NCBI GenBank assembly: GCA_027039165.1
Contig: JALWEZ010000058.1
Span: 1-16,064 of the forward strand
Length of the DNA stretch: 16,064 bases
Origin: Candidatus Moraniibacteriota bacterium
Lineage (GTDB): Bacteria; Patescibacteriota; Minisyncoccia; Moranbacterales; GCA-2747515
Direction of reading: 5' to 3'
Numbering within the stretch: position 1 is the stretch's first letter; every line of letters starts with the position of its first letter. Made by a program: the position numbers and the translations under genes. Shown one piece after another: positions 1 to 14,928 of the stretch. Under the pieces are notes generated by a model, which saw only the letters and a list, made by a program, of their open reading frames with translations, did no database searches and had not been told where the DNA came from.

Positions 1-1277
1 ATAGTATAGAATGTAATTTAGGTGCTAATTGTGTTGCTTTAGATAAAAAAATACATGATGAAATTTTTGAATCTATAAAAAAATTAGAAAGTGCTACTGG
101 AGAAGGAAATCAATATTTAGGATGGTTGAATTTACCTAAGGAATATTCAAAAGAGGAGGTTCAAAAAATAAAAAATACAGCAACAGAGATAAAAGAAAAT
201 GCAGATATTTTACTAGTAATAGGTATTGGTGGATCTTACTTGGGAGCCAGAGCCGTTATAGAGTCGCAAAGGGGAGTTTTTCATAATGAGGTAGGTAGTA
301 CAAAAATTTATTTTTTAGGAACTAGTCTCGATGAGACTTATATTACACAAATTCTAGAAATTATAGAAGATAAAAGTGTATATGTGAATGTAATATCAAA
401 GTCAGGAACTACACTTGAACCCGCAGTGGCTTTTCGCATAATTAAAAAAGCATTATCTGAAAAATATTCAGAAAAGGAACTTAAAAAAAGAATTATTGCA
501 ACAACAGACAAGGAAAAAGGAGCTCTTAAGAAATTAGCAGATGAAGAGGGTTTCAGTACATTTGTGGTACCAGATGATATTGGAGGTAGATATAGTGTTT
601 TTACTCCAGTAGGGCTTTTGCCAATAGCTGTGGCAGATGTTGATATAGAAGAGCTTTTAGATGGAGCTAGACAAGCTATGAATGATTTTTCTGTAGGTAG
701 TTTAGAAGATAATCCGTTCTATAAGTATGTAGCAGTTAGGAATGCGCTTTACAGAGCAGGTTACAGTACAGAAGTTTTTACAAATTATTTGCCAAGTTTT
801 GTACAATTTAATGAGTGGCTTAAACAACTTTTTGGAGAATCAGAAGGAAAAGATGGTAAAGGTTTATATCCATCATCTATGACTTTTACAACAGATTTGC
901 ATTCACTTGGTCAGTATATTCAAGACGGGAAAAAGGGACTATTATTCAAAACAGAATTAAAGATAGAAAGTTCGGAGAATGATATATCTGTGCCGCACGA
1001 TAACAAAAACTATGATGAATTAAATTACATTGCAGGCAAGTCGTTTAAAGAACTGAATTTGACCGCTCAAGAAGGTGTTTATATAGCTCACGACAACGGA
1101 GGTGTTCCGCAAATAACTATTTCAATTCCAAAAAATAACGCATATTATTTAGGTATGCTCATTTATTTTTTTGAAAAGGCTTGTGCAGTGAGCGCATATA
1201 CACTGGGCGTAAATCCGTTTAATCAACCAGGAGTAGAAGAGTATAAGAGTCATATGTTTAGACTTCTTGGAAAATAA
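1..1277 (+). CDS. pgi: Glucose-6-phosphate isomerase, 5'-truncated by window edge
   Basis: Interconverts glucose-6-phosphate and fructose-6-phosphate in the cytoplasm, linking glycolysis to the sugar-nucleotide genes downstream. The frame is open from position 3 with no stop, so the gene begins before the window. The in-window part reads SIECNLGANC... and passes through GWLNLPKEYSKEEV, which matches the N-terminal GW-[VL]-DLP region of bacterial (Bacillus-type) Pgi. A TTG at 126 lies inside this conserved stretch and is not the start. Visible motifs are VIGIGGSYLGARA (sugar-phosphate isomerase fold), GESEGKDGKGLYPSS, the family signature DDIGGRYSVFTPVGLLP, and the C-terminal signature FNQPGVEEYKSHMFRLL. 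About 425 residues are visible against roughly 450 in Bacillus-type enzymes, so only a short N-terminal piece is missing. It ends in TAA and is followed by a hairpin terminator. Confidence 0.95.
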   Translation, partial: SIECNLGANCVALDKKIHDEIFESIKKLESATGEGNQYLGWLNLPKEYSKEEVQKIKNTATEIKENADILLVIGIGGSYLGARAVIESQRGVFHNEVGSTKIYFLGTSLDETYITQILEIIEDKSVYVNVISKSGTTLEPAVAFRIIKKALSEKYSEKELKKRIIATTDKEKGALKKLADEEGFSTFVVPDDIGGRYSVFTPVGLLPIAVADVDIEELLDGARQAMNDFSVGSLEDNPFYKYVAVRNALYRAGYSTEVFTNYLPSFVQFNEWLKQLFGESEGKDGKGLYPSSMTFTTDLHSLGQYIQDGKKGLLFKTELKIESSENDISVPHDNKNYDELNYIAGKSFKELNLTAQEGVYIAHDNGGVPQITISIPKNNAYYLGMLIYFFEKACAVSAYTLGVNPFNQPGVEEYKSHMFRLLGK

Positions 1278-1372: not shown

Positions 1373-1834
1373 TTAATCTTTTGGGTTAACATGAATAAAA
1401 TCTTTTTCTTTTTCCATCCGTTCTTTTACTAATTGTTCAATTTTGGCTTCTCTTTTGGATTTATGTATTTTGTATATTATAAATACTACTCCTATGAGTA
1501 TCAAAACCATTAATACTGTTCCAAAGCCACCACCAAAAGCAGATCCAAATAACGAACCAAGTAAAGCTCCTCCTAATAAACCACCAAGTAATCCGCCAAA
1601 GAAACCTTTTTTAGAAGAGTTGTTTTGTGTTTTATTTGATGTAGTTTTTGTATTTGTAGACGGTTTGGTTGTATGACTTCTAAAACTTCTACCACTTCGT
1701 CTAGCTATTAAAATAGGTTCATTTTTGGACTTTAATAAGGTTGTTTCATAATTTGCTAATTTATTTGTAGAAGAAGCAAATGCTGGAGATGATATTAAAA
1801 ATAACATCATGGATAATATTATAGTTTTTTTCAT
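1373..1834 (-). CDS. Short exported/membrane protein resembling the N-terminal part of Tim44-like proteins
   Basis: 153 residues. A signal peptide is visible (MKK, a hydrophobic core, then AFA at about residues 18-20). It is followed by a polar, Ser/Thr/Asn-rich stretch containing ARRSGRSFRSH, a Gly/Leu-rich segment (about 77-104, GGLLGGLLGGALLGSLFG), a membrane helix (about 106-121), and a charged tail ending FIHVNPKD. The order of signal, RSGRSF motif, Gly-rich block and helix is what I know from the N-terminal region of bacterial Tim44-like/COG4395 membrane proteins. The globular Tim44 domain that normally follows is absent, and the frame ends in TAA with no sign of a frameshift. Function is unknown. 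Its promoter (1863-1890) lies in the divergent region shared with the RHH gene. No Shine-Dalgarno site precedes the ATG. Confidence 0.75.
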   Translation of the reverse strand: MKKTIILSMMLFLISSPAFASSTNKLANYETTLLKSKNEPILIARRSGRSFRSHTTKPSTNTKTTSNKTQNNSSKKGFFGGLLGGLLGGALLGSLFGSAFGGGFGTVLMVLILIGVVFIIYKIHKSKREAKIEQLVKERMEKEKDFIHVNPKD

Positions 1835-1862: not shown

Positions 1863-1890
1863 ATTATAACACAATGTGATTTGGAGTCAA
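1863..1890 (-). promoter_or_regulatory. Sigma-70-type promoter for the Tim44-like gene
   Basis: Read on the minus strand: TTGACT (1890-1885), a 16-nt spacer, then TATAAT (1868-1863) with an extended -10 TGT immediately before it. The predicted start of transcription leaves a leader of about 22 nt before the ATG. The 13-nt block 1863-1875 recurs exactly at 7570-7582 in front of the DUF4349 gene. Confidence 0.7.
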
Positions 1891-1922: not shown

Positions 1923-1960
1923 TCATACTTAATCATACTTTTTGTTGACAATTTGTATGA
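1923..1960 (+). promoter_or_regulatory. Candidate operator: TCATAC half-sites at the RHH-gene promoter
   Basis: TCATACTT occurs at 1923-1930 and again at 1933-1940, one helical turn (10 bp) apart. The inverted form GTATGA follows at 1955-1960, inside the spacer of the promoter. The -35 hexamer lies between the second direct copy and the inverted copy. Short half-sites repeated at helical spacing are typical of ribbon-helix-helix operators, and the adjacent gene encodes an RHH domain, so autoregulation is a reasonable inference. Binding is not shown by the sequence alone. Confidence 0.4.
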
Positions 1961-1972
1961 ATGAGATACAAT
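1945..1972 (+). promoter_or_regulatory. Sigma-70-type promoter for the RHH-fusion / mannose gene cluster
   Basis: TTGACA (1945-1950), a 16-nt spacer, TACAAT (1967-1972). Predicted transcription start is near 1979, giving a leader of about 22 nt with no Shine-Dalgarno sequence before the ATG at 2002. It is the only convincing promoter before the three-gene plus-strand cluster ending at 4882. Confidence 0.75.
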
Positions 1973-2001: not shown

Positions 2002-2793
2002 ATGAATAAAAGAGATAGAATTACAATAACAATCAAAAAAGATATACTCAGGCAAGTAGACGCTCTTGTAGATGGTGATAAAATACGAAACAGATCTCAT
2101 GCAATTGAATCAATTTTAAATGATAAATTTGGTGATTCGTTTGTGCGTACTGCTGTTATATTGGGCGGTGGTAGTGGTGTAAAAGTTTCAGGATATACCG
2201 AGTTGACATCACCACTACTTTCTAGATATAAAAAGAAGACTTTAATTGAATGGCATATAGAAAAGCTTAAGAAAATAGGAGTAGAAGAAGTTATCCTTGC
2301 GGTTGGAGTGTTTGGTAGTGACGTACGAAAGTTTTTGGGGGATGGTTCAGTTTATGATATAAGAGTTCTTTATTTTGAACGTGATTATGGTACAGCTAGT
2401 TCCATTCGTCAAGCTAGAAATCTCCTTAAAGATACATTTATAATGTTTAATGGTCATATTGTAGTGGAGGATGTGGACATAAAGGAAATGTTTTTGGCGC
2501 ATAAAAATTCTAAGGCTTTTGTTACTATGGGATTAACTACAGTTGCAAATCCTTCAGATTATGGTCAAGTTACTTTGAAGGGTTCTAATATAACCAAATA
2601 TGTAGAAAAGCCAGGGAAAAGTAAAACTGTATCTTATATAATAAATGCGGGAATATATATAATAAATTCTGAAGTATGTGAACTTGTGAAACCAGAAGAA
2701 GAATCGTTAGAAAAGGATATATTTCCAAAACTTGCTAAAAATAATAAATTAAATGGCTATATGATAGATGTGCCATGGCAGAGAATTAAATAA
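2002..2793 (+). CDS. Ribbon-helix-helix domain fused to a degenerate sugar nucleotidyltransferase domain
   Basis: 263 residues. Residues 4-44 (RDRITITIKKDILRQVDALV, then GDKIRNRSHAIESIL) form a CopG/Arc-type ribbon-helix-helix: a basic beta strand, a helix, the NRSHAIE turn and a second helix. Residues 50-256 follow the NDP-sugar pyrophosphorylase fold: AVILGGG at 51-57, LIEWHIEKLKKIG, YGTASSIRQA, YVEKP at 200-204, INAGIYI at 214-220 and an IDV near the end. Key positions differ from active enzymes. The GGxGTRL signature reads GGGSGVKV (Arg to Lys61), the PKPLL motif reads TSPLL (Lys to Ser70), and the metal-site NGD reads NGH (Asp to His152). It may therefore bind a sugar nucleotide or sugar phosphate without catalysis and act as a ligand-responsive repressor. 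RHH-nucleotidyltransferase fusions exist in CPR as far as I recall. The gene starts the mannose cluster, 25 nt before manC. The regulatory role is inference. Confidence 0.8.
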   Translation: MNKRDRITITIKKDILRQVDALVDGDKIRNRSHAIESILNDKFGDSFVRTAVILGGGSGVKVSGYTELTSPLLSRYKKKTLIEWHIEKLKKIGVEEVILAVGVFGSDVRKFLGDGSVYDIRVLYFERDYGTASSIRQARNLLKDTFIMFNGHIVVEDVDIKEMFLAHKNSKAFVTMGLTTVANPSDYGQVTLKGSNITKYVEKPGKSKTVSYIINAGIYIINSEVCELVKPEEESLEKDIFPKLAKNNKLNGYMIDVPWQRIK

Positions 2794-2818: not shown

Positions 2819-3892
2819 ATGAGTAAAAAAATAAATAAAGCAGTTATAATGGCAGGTGGAACTGGAAGTAGGTTGTGGCCTGTGTCAGTTAAAAATAAAC
2901 CTAAACAATTTCAAGCTATAGCATCCGACAAAACAATGCTACAAGAAACTTACTTAAGACTTAGAAAAAAATTTGAAGTAGAAGATATTTACATATCCAC
3001 AAATTTAGAATACGTCGCTGAAATAAAAAGAGAAATACTTGAGATTCCAGAAAAAAATATTATTTCTGAGCCTGTAGCAAGAGGTACGGCTAGTAGTATA
3101 GCGTTTACAGTTGCAGTGATACTTGCACATGAGCCAGAAGCTATTGTATCTACTTTTCCAGCTGATCATTTAATAAAGTCTAGTGATAGATTTATAGATG
3201 CTGTAAATGATGGTGAAAAATTTATTATAAATAATCCAAAAAGTATATTTACGTTTGGTATAATCCCGACTTATCCAGAGGTTGGATATGGGTATATAAA
3301 AAAGGTTTCAGATAGCTTTAATAAGAATGACATTTTTAAAGTGGATAGGTTTGTAGAAAAACCTGATATTGAGACGGCTCATAAGTATATAAAAGATGGT
3401 AGTTATTTTTGGAATGCTGGGATGTATATATTTAATGCAAAAAGTATGAAAAATAGATTTAAAAAATATATTCCAGACATTTTTAAAATGATAGAAATAA
3501 TTCAAAAATCATTAGATTCTGATAATTATGAAAAAATTTTAGCCAAAGAATATCCAAAAATGAATGATATAAACTTTGAATACGCTATAGTTGAAAATGA
3601 TAATAATGTTTTTGTGATGCCACTCGATATTGGTTGGAGTGATGTAGGAAGTTGGTCGTCTTTAAAAGATACGTTGGTTAGTGACGAAAATAAACATTTA
3701 GTTAGAGGGAGGCATATTGATTTTGATAGTAAAAATTTATTAGTATATGGTTCTAAAAAACTAATAACAACTGTAGGATTGGAAGATTTAGTTATAGTAG
3801 ATTCAGAAGATGCGATTTTGATTTGTCACAAAGATAAATCTCAAATGGTAGGAGATATTTCAAAGAAAATTCAGTCTTTAAATAATAAATAA
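2819..3892 (+). CDS. manC: Mannose-1-phosphate guanylyltransferase (GDP-mannose pyrophosphorylase)
   Basis: Makes GDP-mannose from mannose-1-phosphate and GTP in the cytoplasm. 357 residues. The N-terminal signature MAGGTGSRLWPVS (11-23), followed by NKPKQF (26-31), is the classic family motif. Further motifs in order are STFPADHLI, VEVGYGYIKK-like EVGYGYIKK, RFVEKPD, FWNAGMYIF, FEYAIVEND and DIGWSDVGSWSSL, so all catalytic elements look intact. The length fits the monofunctional enzyme: the C-terminal cupin phosphomannose isomerase domain of bifunctional ManC/AlgA proteins (about 470 residues) is missing. It follows the RHH fusion by 25 nt and precedes the SDR gene by 15 nt, so it is probably co-transcribed. 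There is no Shine-Dalgarno site; the start is preceded by an A/T-rich stretch. Confidence 0.93.
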   Translation: MSKKINKAVIMAGGTGSRLWPVSVKNKPKQFQAIASDKTMLQETYLRLRKKFEVEDIYISTNLEYVAEIKREILEIPEKNIISEPVARGTASSIAFTVAVILAHEPEAIVSTFPADHLIKSSDRFIDAVNDGEKFIINNPKSIFTFGIIPTYPEVGYGYIKKVSDSFNKNDIFKVDRFVEKPDIETAHKYIKDGSYFWNAGMYIFNAKSMKNRFKKYIPDIFKMIEIIQKSLDSDNYEKILAKEYPKMNDINFEYAIVENDNNVFVMPLDIGWSDVGSWSSLKDTLVSDENKHLVRGRHIDFDSKNLLVYGSKKLITTVGLEDLVIVDSEDAILICHKDKSQMVGDISKKIQSLNNK

Positions 3893-3907: not shown

Positions 3908-4882
3908 ATGTCAAAAAAAAGAATATTAGTTTGCGGTGGTGCAGGTTTTATAGGTTCAAATTTTGCAAATTTTCACAAGGATAATTATGAAGTTATAGTT
4001 GTTGATAATCTACTTCTTGGAGATAAGAGAAATTTAGAGGAAGGTGTGACTTTTATAGAAGGTTCTGTCGCAAATGAAGATACTTTGAATAAAGTGGGTC
4101 CAGTTGATTATGTATTTAATTTAGCAGGAACTTCTTCTCAACCTATGTTTAACGGCGATGGTTTAGTGGAAGGATATGTGAATTCTGTAGAGTCATTTAT
4201 GAGAGTACTTGATTGGAGTGCAAAAAATGGAGTAAAAAAAGTTTTATATGCTTCTACGTCATCTTTATATGCAAATAATCCTTTACCTTTAGTAGAAACT
4301 CAAAGAGTAACTCCTCCAAATCATTACGCTGTAACTAAACATTTATATGAATCGGCTAGTAGATGTTTTAATAAGGTTCATCCTGAAATGGACATCATAG
4401 GATTTCGTTTCATGAGTATTTACGGTCCAAACGAAGAAGCTAAAGGTCAATATGCTAATCTTATTTCACAATTTGTTTGGGATGTAGCTAGGGGAAGTAG
4501 ACCTCAGATATGGGGGGACGGTACTCAAACTCGTGATTTTACGAATGTTAGAGATGTTATACAAGGCGCAACTCTTGCTATGGAGTCAGACAAAAAGTTT
4601 GGTGCAGAAGTGTTTAATATAGGAACTGGTAAATCTACATCATTAAATGAAGTAACGGATGCAATATATAAAGCTTTTGGAAAAGAAAATGATACTGAAT
4701 ACATAGAAAATCCAGTTAAAGAAACTTACATAAAAGATCAGCATGCTGATATTTCGAAAATTAAAAAAGAATTAGGATTTGAACCAAGTGTGGAATTATC
4801 TGATGGGATAAAAGAACAAGTTAAAAATTTGAGAATGGATAGAATAAGACAGACAAGTTCAGATTTAATGAGGCAAAAATAA
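3908..4882 (+). CDS. NAD-dependent epimerase/dehydratase, extended SDR family (sugar nucleotide)
   Basis: 324 residues. It has a Rossmann NAD-binding motif GGAGFIG (10-16), an acidic residue ending strand 2 (VVDN, Asp33), the NLAGTSSQP loop, the catalytic region ASTSSLYA (115-122) and YAVTK (140-144). The C-terminal substrate-binding half contains FRFMSIYGP, IWGDGTQTRDFTNVRDV and FNIGTGKSTSLNEV. This is the architecture of UDP-glucose/UDP-GlcNAc 4-epimerases and GDP- or dTDP-sugar dehydratases. The exact substrate cannot be read from sequence. Its place 15 nt after manC makes a GDP-sugar possible, while the motifs are also close to UDP-sugar 4-epimerases. The last 18 residues form a charged tail beyond the usual fold. 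A second, clearer GalE lies at 5447-6466, so this one probably has another substrate. Confidence 0.88.
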   Translation: MSKKRILVCGGAGFIGSNFANFHKDNYEVIVVDNLLLGDKRNLEEGVTFIEGSVANEDTLNKVGPVDYVFNLAGTSSQPMFNGDGLVEGYVNSVESFMRVLDWSAKNGVKKVLYASTSSLYANNPLPLVETQRVTPPNHYAVTKHLYESASRCFNKVHPEMDIIGFRFMSIYGPNEEAKGQYANLISQFVWDVARGSRPQIWGDGTQTRDFTNVRDVIQGATLAMESDKKFGAEVFNIGTGKSTSLNEVTDAIYKAFGKENDTEYIENPVKETYIKDQHADISKIKKELGFEPSVELSDGIKEQVKNLRMDRIRQTSSDLMRQK

Positions 4883-8576: not shown

Positions 8577-9389
8577 ATGAAAATAGCAATAATCGGTTAT
8601 GGATATGTAGGTAGGGCTTATCATCAAATTTTTAAAGATGCAATTATCTACGATCCGTTTGTAAAAGATGTAAAAACTGTTTCAAAAAAAGAAGTTAATA
8701 CTTGCGATTTAGTTTTAATATCAGTTCCTACTCCGACTGCAAGTGATGGATATTCATGTGATACTTCAATTGTAGAAGAAACTCTTTCATGGCTTAAGGT
8801 AAAAAATGTTTTAATAAAATCCACAGTCCGTCCAAAAACAACAGAAAAGTTACAGAAGAAATATAAAGATTTGAATATAGTGTTTAGTCCTGAATTTGTG
8901 GGTGAGGGAGGATATTTTGTACAGTATTGGCTTTATCCACATGCGACTAATCCAATGTATCATGACTTTCAAATACTTGGAGGACCAAAAGAGGCAACAG
9001 CAAGATTTGCTGAAATGTTTATACGGTATGTAGGACCACATATTAAAGTTTATCAAACTGATTCACGTACTGCTGAAATTATAAAGTATACTGAGAATAT
9101 GTTTATAGCGACAAAAGTCACATTTGTAAATGAAATGCATGAGGTTTGCAAGGCTTTTGATAGGGAATGGGTTGATGTTAGAGAAGGATGGTTACTAGAT
9201 ACAAGAGTTAGTAGGATGTTTACTGGAGTTTTCTCTGATAAAAGAGGCTATGAAGGAAAATGTCTTCCAAAGGACACAAAGGCTTTGGTAAAATCCGTAG
9301 AAAAAGAGGGATATGATCCTAAACTACTAAAAGAAGTTATAGCTAGTAATAATAGAATAAGAAAAGAAACTGGATTTGAGGAAGTATAA
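8577..9389 (+). CDS. Short UDP-glucose/GDP-mannose dehydrogenase family protein lacking the C-terminal domain
   Basis: 270 residues. The Rossmann motif GYGYVG lies at 7-12, SVPTPTASDGYSCDTS is the conserved PTP...D...DTS block, FSPEFVGEGG is the family's SPEF-EG motif, KYTENMFIATKVTFVNEM is the central helix with its Lys and Asn-Glu, and GYEGKCLPKDTKAL carries the nucleophilic Cys229 used in the two-step oxidation of NDP-sugar C6. Full enzymes have about 400-450 residues. Here the protein stops 41 residues after the Cys, so the C-terminal UDP-binding domain is missing, and the first Rossmann half is also condensed. No remnant of that domain follows: the next 200 nt are the tuf promoter region. 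An uronate-forming role is likely by family, but the nucleotide partner is uncertain. Confidence 0.85.
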   Translation: MKIAIIGYGYVGRAYHQIFKDAIIYDPFVKDVKTVSKKEVNTCDLVLISVPTPTASDGYSCDTSIVEETLSWLKVKNVLIKSTVRPKTTEKLQKKYKDLNIVFSPEFVGEGGYFVQYWLYPHATNPMYHDFQILGGPKEATARFAEMFIRYVGPHIKVYQTDSRTAEIIKYTENMFIATKVTFVNEMHEVCKAFDREWVDVREGWLLDTRVSRMFTGVFSDKRGYEGKCLPKDTKALVKSVEKEGYDPKLLKEVIASNNRIRKETGFEEV

Positions 9390-14268: not shown

Positions 14269-14928
14269 ATGACAAAGGTAAAAGCACGATTAAATAATTT
14301 AAGAACGTCACCTAGAAAAGTGAATTTAGTGGCGATGAGATTAAGAGGAAAGAGCGTTGAAGAAGCACTTAATATATTAGAGTTTGATTTGCGCAAGTCT
14401 TCAATTCCTTTCTCTAAATTAATTTTGAGCGCAAAAGCTAATGCTATTAATAACTTTAAATTAAATGAAAAAAAGTTAATAATCGATGAAATATTAGTTT
14501 CTGCTGGACCAACTTTAAAAAGATGGAGGCCGAGGGCTTATGGAAGAGCTTCTAAAATCATGAAGCGAACATCAAAAATAATAGTGGTTTTAAGAGAAAA
14601 TGAGATTACTGAAGAAAATAAAAAAGTAGTAATAGAAAAGAAGCGAGAAGATAAAATTAATAGTTCTAAGAAATCACTAAAAAAAGATGATTTTACAAAA
14701 ATAGAGGGAATTGGTCCGAAAATATCTGAAACTTTAATAAAAGCAGGAGTAAAAACTTTTAAAGATTTGAGCGAACAAAAAACATCTAAGATTGATGAAA
14801 TAATATCAGGTGTTAGAGGAAATCATGATTCAACTACGTGGCCAGAGCAAGCAAGAATGGCTCACAAAGGAGAATGGGAAAAGTTAGAAAAATGGCAAAA
14901 AGAGCTTATAGGAGGTAAGAAAAAATAA
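14269..14928 (+). CDS. rplV: 50S ribosomal protein L22 fused to a C-terminal helix-hairpin-helix domain
   Basis: 219 residues, about twice the usual 110. Residues 1-112 are L22: RTSPRKVNLVAMRLRGK (12-28), LILSAKANAINN, DEILVSAGPTLKRWRPRAYG (tunnel-lining hairpin, about 73-92), and KRTSKIIVVL. A Lys/Glu linker (113-138) leads to an HhH domain (about 140-182: DDFTKIEGIGPKISETLIKAG, then TFKDLSE) and a STTWPEQARMAHKGEWEKLE tail (about 188-207). HhH plus WPEQA tail is a module I know as a C-terminal extension on ribosomal proteins such as L21 and L22 in Bacteroidetes and CPR. It probably binds rRNA through the HhH backbone; its role is unknown. The frame is continuous, so this is a real fusion. 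Confidence 0.95.
   Translation: MTKVKARLNNLRTSPRKVNLVAMRLRGKSVEEALNILEFDLRKSSIPFSKLILSAKANAINNFKLNEKKLIIDEILVSAGPTLKRWRPRAYGRASKIMKRTSKIIVVLRENEITEENKKVVIEKKREDKINSSKKSLKKDDFTKIEGIGPKISETLIKAGVKTFKDLSEQKTSKIDEIISGVRGNHDSTTWPEQARMAHKGEWEKLEKWQKELIGGKKK

Follow-up and report, generated by a model that had tools for sequence, protein, structure and literature searches.

The nickel-responsive repressor NikR reads the sequence GTATGA through residues R3, T5 and T7 of its ribbon-helix-helix (RHH) domain. Trigger enzymes with a DNA-binding domain include PutA (RHH plus enzyme) and NadR (helix-turn-helix plus nucleotidyltransferase), and GMPPA, a dead GDP-mannose-binding paralogue of GMPPB, acts on the GMPPB protein. 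To our knowledge, gene control in the ultra-small, host-dependent Patescibacteria and in DPANN archaea is little known. Here we analyzed a 16,064-nt contig, JALWEZ010000058.1 (assembly GCA_027039165.1), from Candidatus Moraniibacteriota bacterium, the whole of which we call the window, and in it a gene that fuses an RHH domain to a sugar nucleotidyltransferase (NTase) fold. An initial annotation made from the letters of the window had taken the product for a possible sugar-nucleotide-sensing repressor of the mannose cluster that it heads. Our own reading, to which we assign a probability of about 0.62, is that the protein would be a non-catalytic, sugar-nucleotide-responsive transcription factor derived from a GDP-mannose-pyrophosphorylase-like enzyme. 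A limited literature search returned no paper that names an RHH-NTase fusion in its title or the opening of its abstract, and we do not claim novelty in print.

The RHH-NTase family and its operator

We found 357 homologues of the window protein. Genome contigs gave 233 relatives besides, and we examined the best 80 of them; these numbers rule out a one-off fusion or assembly artefact. The hosts are Patescibacteria and mainly DPANN archaea. The RHH signature is kept in 119 of 120 aligned homologues, with R6, T8 and T10 present in 114, 110 and 118 of the 120. Taken alone, the RHH of the window protein scores under the Pfam cut-off (14.4 bits vs 20.5), and the top Foldseek match to its model, which has a pLDDT of only 77, is NikR 2hza (probability 0.94, E 0.32). 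A profile built from 43 family N-termini retrieves E. coli NikR at 1e-6, and 22 of the 43 match RHH_1 individually, the window's not being among the matches at 1e-3. The N-terminal RHH domain proposed in the initial annotation is thus borne out at the level of the family, with the strand, both helices and the N-R-S turn conserved. The remainder of the protein is certain to be a sugar-1-phosphate nucleotidyltransferase fold, as had also been proposed (Pfam NTP_transferase, PF00483, residues 51-256, 5e-25). The nickel-binding C-terminal domain of NikR is absent, residues 50-261 being NTP_transferase and the NikR models, whose cut-offs are 83 and 175, scoring 19 bits.

What is new in this analysis is the operator of the RHH-NTase family. 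We first noticed TCATAC/GTATGA by eye in the window, in part because the half-site of NikR is the same. Within 200 bp upstream of the regulator gene it ranks first among all 6-mers, occurring in 55 of 82 loci, where 1,399 background stretches taken from those loci predict 6.0 (duplicates L003, L005, L006, L108 and L109 removed beforehand, kinship of loci uncorrected). Our first guess, a NikR-like inverted pair with a 16-bp gap, was given up in favor of the arrangement that the family displays, a direct repeat with a 10-bp period found at 38 of the 82 loci against 0.18 expected, again uncorrected for kinship. Allowing one mismatch, TCATAC-N4-TCATAC at 11 or more of 12 letters lies upstream in 34 of 79 loci (one locus with less than 100 bp upstream having been left out) and in none of 1,580 dinucleotide shuffles, as would be predicted for the operator of an RHH factor. 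The inverted third half-site of the window is not kept in the same-genus orthologue.

The window's 1.15 Mb genome holds two exact copies of the repeat, one of them the predicted operator. A scan of this genome that allowed one mismatch was uninformative (11 sites vs 6 for the control pattern), and therefore only exact sites were used in genome scans. Across 64 genomes with a regulator gene (G130, which has two, counted once) there are 57 exact sites, whereas the reversed pattern gives 17. An RHH-NTase gene begins within 350 bp downstream of 25 of these sites, and five stand ahead of a glutamate dehydrogenase (GDH) gene. Same-order genomes lacking the regulator (n=111) have 9 sites vs 9 for the control, and those with it (n=7) have 6 vs 1. 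DNA targeting by the RHH-NTase regulator is well supported by these comparisons, and the initial view of the RHH as a working DNA-binding domain gains comparative support from the conserved operator.

Sites were also seen elsewhere in a few loci. L172 (4998, 6815) and L029 (2796, 5146) have exact or 11-of-12 repeats farther upstream and no good site directly before the regulator; those of L172 lie 98 and 154 bp ahead of a HAD-phosphatase gene and of another gene presumed to be in the operon. Two Uhrbacteria loci, L137 and L138, have exact operators in surroundings that look alike by eye, and L150 and L165 have a pair of sites beside PRPP synthetase; both pairs look common to related genomes, and neither has a clear target gene.

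Catalytic residues lost and kept

We scored five columns with known catalytic roles: GGxGTR Arg, PKP Lys, NGD Asp, EKP Lys and WxDxG Asp. The window protein scores 1, the EKP Lys being the sole survivor, which is not the residue set of an enzyme. The initial annotation was correct that R61 has become Lys and D152 His, and that EKP and NAG are kept; it overlooked the second metal-ligand Asp, now Arg (D261R). It had also reported the PKP lysine as Ser70: the loss of the lysine stands, and Ser70 is what phmmer aligns, whereas the family alignment puts the column at position 71, a Pro in the window. From this pattern the domain very likely lacks catalysis, its phosphate- and metal-binding residues being gone.

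In the 20 sequences of the H152 group the substitutes are fixed (S70 100%, P71 95%), and GGxG, GTA, NG and NAG are 100% conserved, with E202 at 90%, K203 at 85% and P204 at 65%; kinship among these sequences is uncorrected. In the window's clade, then, the earlier claim of lost catalytic residues and a kept pocket frame holds, and the replacements are equally fixed. The window gene is under purifying selection, with a dN/dS of 0.105 relative to the same-genus orthologue (dS 1.37, near saturation) and values by part, under the same near-saturated dS, of 0.067 for the RHH and 0.113 for the NTase. This dN/dS of 0.105 rules out pseudogene decay of the NTase part and, taken with fixed substitutes amid kept motifs, makes the residue pattern look like re-purposing rather than decay.

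Purifying selection on the NTase part would also suit a protein that is still an enzyme, with changed chemistry and autoregulation besides, and the newly fixed residues H152, R136 and H85 could be read in that way. We regard this as highly improbable given that both metal Asp, the PKP Lys and the GGxGTR Arg are jointly gone and that a ManC is encoded next door. A second alternative is that the NTase part serves only as an oligomerisation scaffold in a constitutive autoregulator that needs no ligand, which agrees with the operator and the RHH being the best-supported parts of the system. Complete conservation of the pocket loops and NAG in the 20 sequences, despite their changed catalytic residues, argues against this, as do the archaeal-side relatives, most of which retain the full active site, and we consider a pure scaffold improbable.

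The tree of 111 rows (L072, with masked letters, and the truncated L029 left out) separates the degenerate members from the rest. One branch with 100/99 support holds 47 rows, all scoring 3 or less, while among the other 64 rows one scores 3 and 63 score 4-5. Within the latter, a mostly bacterial group of 23 rows includes 21 whose sole loss is the GGxGTR arginine, and the 41 rows of a mainly archaeal group include 28 with all five residues. The residues are therefore not consistently lost in RHH-fused members, a point that the initial annotation had proposed to check, and an intact RHH with intact catalytic motifs, as seen in these 28 archaeal-side rows, is the sequence half of what it had named as a refutation. 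Since the tree was rooted at its midpoint, the direction of residue change is only inferred.

A score of 3 or less is found in 17 of the 80 loci proteins, the window's among them (L065 and L097, which have no open reading frame by our filter, were dropped from scoring). Two of the 17 are special cases: L070 falls outside the degenerate clade, and L072 is low only through one masked residue. ManC lies directly downstream in 11 of the 17 vs none of the 63 others, or in 11 of 15 without these two; 7 of the 15 have a strong operator. Phosphohexomutase is directly downstream in 25 of the 63 higher-scoring loci vs none of the 17. The window gene sits in the degenerate clade, whose members are often immediately 5’ of a separate ManC. 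Genome G130 has two RHH-NTase genes, L034 and L070; one is degenerate and has ManC after it, and the second belongs to the opposite side of the tree.

The proximity of ManC raises the alternative that the dead NTase domain is a regulatory subunit of ManC in the manner of GMPPA and GMPPB, binding GDP-mannose, ManC or both, with complex formation then governing either DNA binding or the activity of ManC. We think this unlikely, since members scoring 4-5 have no ManC within five genes (63 loci) and many of them still have the same operator, which argues that control at DNA is independent of ManC.

Promoters, targets and gene neighbourhood

Promoter and TATA spacings are given as raw counts. In 20 bacterial loci the operator centre lies from -3 to +7 of the start of the -10 box in 10 when the best predicted promoter is used, and in 13 when either of the two best is allowed. 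Because the repeat itself contains -10-like letters, the independent sign is a TTGAC element at the right distance, which nine bacterial loci with the operator over the -10 have (L085 by its second promoter). In archaeal-type loci with an operator of at least 11 letters, hand-picked from record titles and including L045, a TATA-like box follows 26-29 bp after the operator start in 12 of 14, at exactly 27 in 9. L045, on a contig titled Aminicenantes, is an archaeal-type member with archaeal TATA spacing and is possibly a binning error.

Operators that cover a -10-like box fit repression in many Patescibacteria, and the archaeal spacing makes activation plausible there. For the window gene the geometry is mixed: by the best promoter, in the window as in its same-genus orthologue, the operator centre precedes the start of the -10 by 36 bp, a position just upstream of the -35 box, and by the window's second-best promoter (9 of 12 letters), one of the 13 above, the operator covers the -10. 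The term repressor in the initial annotation is thus not settled, and the sign of regulation is inferred.

We then compared GDH upstream regions in 37 bacterial regulator-bearing genomes, 20 with GDH, and 46 same-order genomes without the regulator, 19 with GDH. A site of at least 10 of 12 letters precedes GDH in 8 of the 20, the window's own genome included, vs none of the 19 (Fisher 0.003). Single further operator matches lie ahead of GAPDH, phosphohexomutase, a PfkB kinase and an alpha-amylase-family gene, and in three Uhrbacteria a PEP carboxykinase gene apparently follows GDH (Pfam confirms one of the three; the other two are assigned by eye). FBPase, FBP aldolase, GAPDH-II, PGK, transketolase, PGI/PMI and PRPP synthetase each occur near the regulator in two to four loci. 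Control of the mannose cluster, as initially proposed, agrees with the position before ManC and the epimerase, but the regulon is likely wider and would include GDH.

Features of the window are collected in Table 1. The Gly-rich gene also stands beside the regulator in L028, and in the window its promoter and the operator share one intergenic region. A nucleotide-sugar dehydrogenase at 8577-9389 is only 270 aa, covering model positions 68-298 of 413 with the C-terminal UDP-binding domain unmatched, and a 219-aa open reading frame at 14269-14928, ribosomal protein L22 by eye, has a long C-terminal extension resembling a helix-hairpin-helix stretch. A role in anti-phage defence was rejected, with 0 PADLOC families at E 0.1 among the models of that library.

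Table 1. Coordinates of the regulator gene, its predicted control region and neighbouring genes in the window.
Feature	Position	Strand	Remark
Phosphoglucose isomerase (PGI)	126..1277	+	Metabolic neighbour
Small Gly-rich, probably exported protein	1373..1834	-	Divergent; possible second operator target
Sigma-70-like promoter TTGACT-N16-TATAAT	1863..1890	-	Divergent, for gene 1373-1834; 11 of 12
Predicted operator TCATAC-TTAA-TCATAC	1923..1938	.	Direct repeat, 10-bp period
Sigma-70-like promoter TTGACA-N16-TACAAT	1945..1972	+	11 of 12; beside operator
Third half-site GTATGA, inverted	1955..1960	.	Within promoter spacer, 22 bp from second repeat
RHH-NTase fusion regulator	2002..2793	+	Real open reading frame, 263 aa plus stop
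RHH domain, residues 4-44	2011..2133	+	R6, T8, T10 aligned with NikR R3, T5, T7
Sugar NTase fold, residues 50-261	2149..2784	+	GDP-mannose pyrophosphorylases closest
Lys61	2182..2184	+	In place of GGxGTR arginine of intact members (family alignment)
Ser70-Pro71	2209..2214	+	In place of Pro-Lys of intact members; PKP lysine lost
His152	2455..2457	+	In place of NGD metal Asp of intact members; His here defines the H152 group (20 sequences)
Lys203	2608..2610	+	Kept EKP motif
NAG motif, residues 215-217	2644..2652	+	Kept
Arg261	2782..2784	+	In place of second metal Asp (WxDxG) of intact members
ManC-like mannose-1-phosphate guanylyltransferase	2819..3892	+	With beta-helix domain; catalytic motifs seen by eye; co-transcription likely
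NAD-dependent sugar epimerase/dehydratase	3908..4882	+	Likely same operon

A proposed mechanism and comparison with known systems

We propose that NikR-type RHH dimers would occupy pairs of TCATAC half-sites repeated in tandem at a spacing of one helical turn, both at the regulator's own promoter and at that of GDH, sites that come from comparative genomics. The NTase domain lacks the residues that hold the triphosphate and metal and keeps the frame of the nucleotide loop and sugar pocket; with the catalytic residues lost and this frame kept, binding of a sugar nucleotide or sugar phosphate without turnover is most likely. From the pocket and the context our best guess at the ligand is GDP-mannose or mannose-1-phosphate, which the neighbouring ManC makes and uses, respectively. 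Its occupancy may alter how the RHH dimers seat on DNA, so that the sugar-nucleotide pool would feed back on the mannose operon and on amino-acid-fed carbon metabolism. The simplest account of origin is an ancestral enzyme-regulator acting on sugar nucleotides, which in the window's clade would have become a sensor as ManC took over the chemistry.

A broader scheme is offered tentatively: a single operator may serve two basal machineries, blocking the -10 in many bacteria and, in archaea, preceding TATA by a fixed distance of mostly 27 bp, with probable activation there. The regulator would read the sugar-nucleotide pool and tie it to gluconeogenesis and to the breakdown of amino acids, and one clade would have turned from enzyme to pure sensor once ManC had taken over.

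Several observations weigh against the reading of the window protein as a sugar-nucleotide-responsive transcription factor. No strong direct repeat lies within 200 bp in 45 of the 79 loci, although a few of them carry inverted or operon-level sites, and the dinucleotide shuffles ignore the kinship of loci. Some H152 group members have lost E202 (2/20), K203 (3/20) or P204 (7/20), and residue loss with the ManC neighbourhood is confined to essentially one clade. GDH was chosen after the exact hits, and without those 5 genomes the comparison becomes 3/15 vs 0/19 (p 0.08); the 8 genomes amount to about four lineages (three related Uhrbacteria, two sister Gottesmanbacteria-like genomes, two of the window's genus and one Doudnabacterium), and 12 of the 20 regulator-bearing genomes with GDH have no good GDH site.

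Regulator, operator, promoter geometry and part of the regulon are all accessible from the sequence and amenable to tests in vitro. The RHH-NTase tree holds stages between enzyme and sensor, and the route by which a metabolic enzyme becomes a transcription factor that senses a metabolite could therefore be traced stepwise.

Among described systems, NikR resembles the family in its RHH sequence (profile E 1e-6), its R3-T5-T7 aligning with R6-T8-T10, and differs in its sensor, a nickel domain rather than a sugar-NTase fold, and in its sites, an inverted pair with a 16-bp gap where the family has mainly 10-bp direct repeats. The GDP-mannose pyrophosphorylases (VTC1, GMPPB, ManC) retain the GGxGTR Arg, PKP Lys and both metal Asp that the window protein has lost; the latter has an RHH added and no match to the C-terminal beta-helix model. 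Like GMPPA, it is a catalytically degenerate pyrophosphorylase that was likely reused as a sensor, although the target of GMPPA is the GMPPB protein and that of the RHH-NTase family appears to be DNA. PutA and NadR likewise join a metabolic enzyme fold to a DNA-binding domain, but their enzyme folds are different ones, and in the RHH-NTase family a whole clade has lost its catalytic residues.
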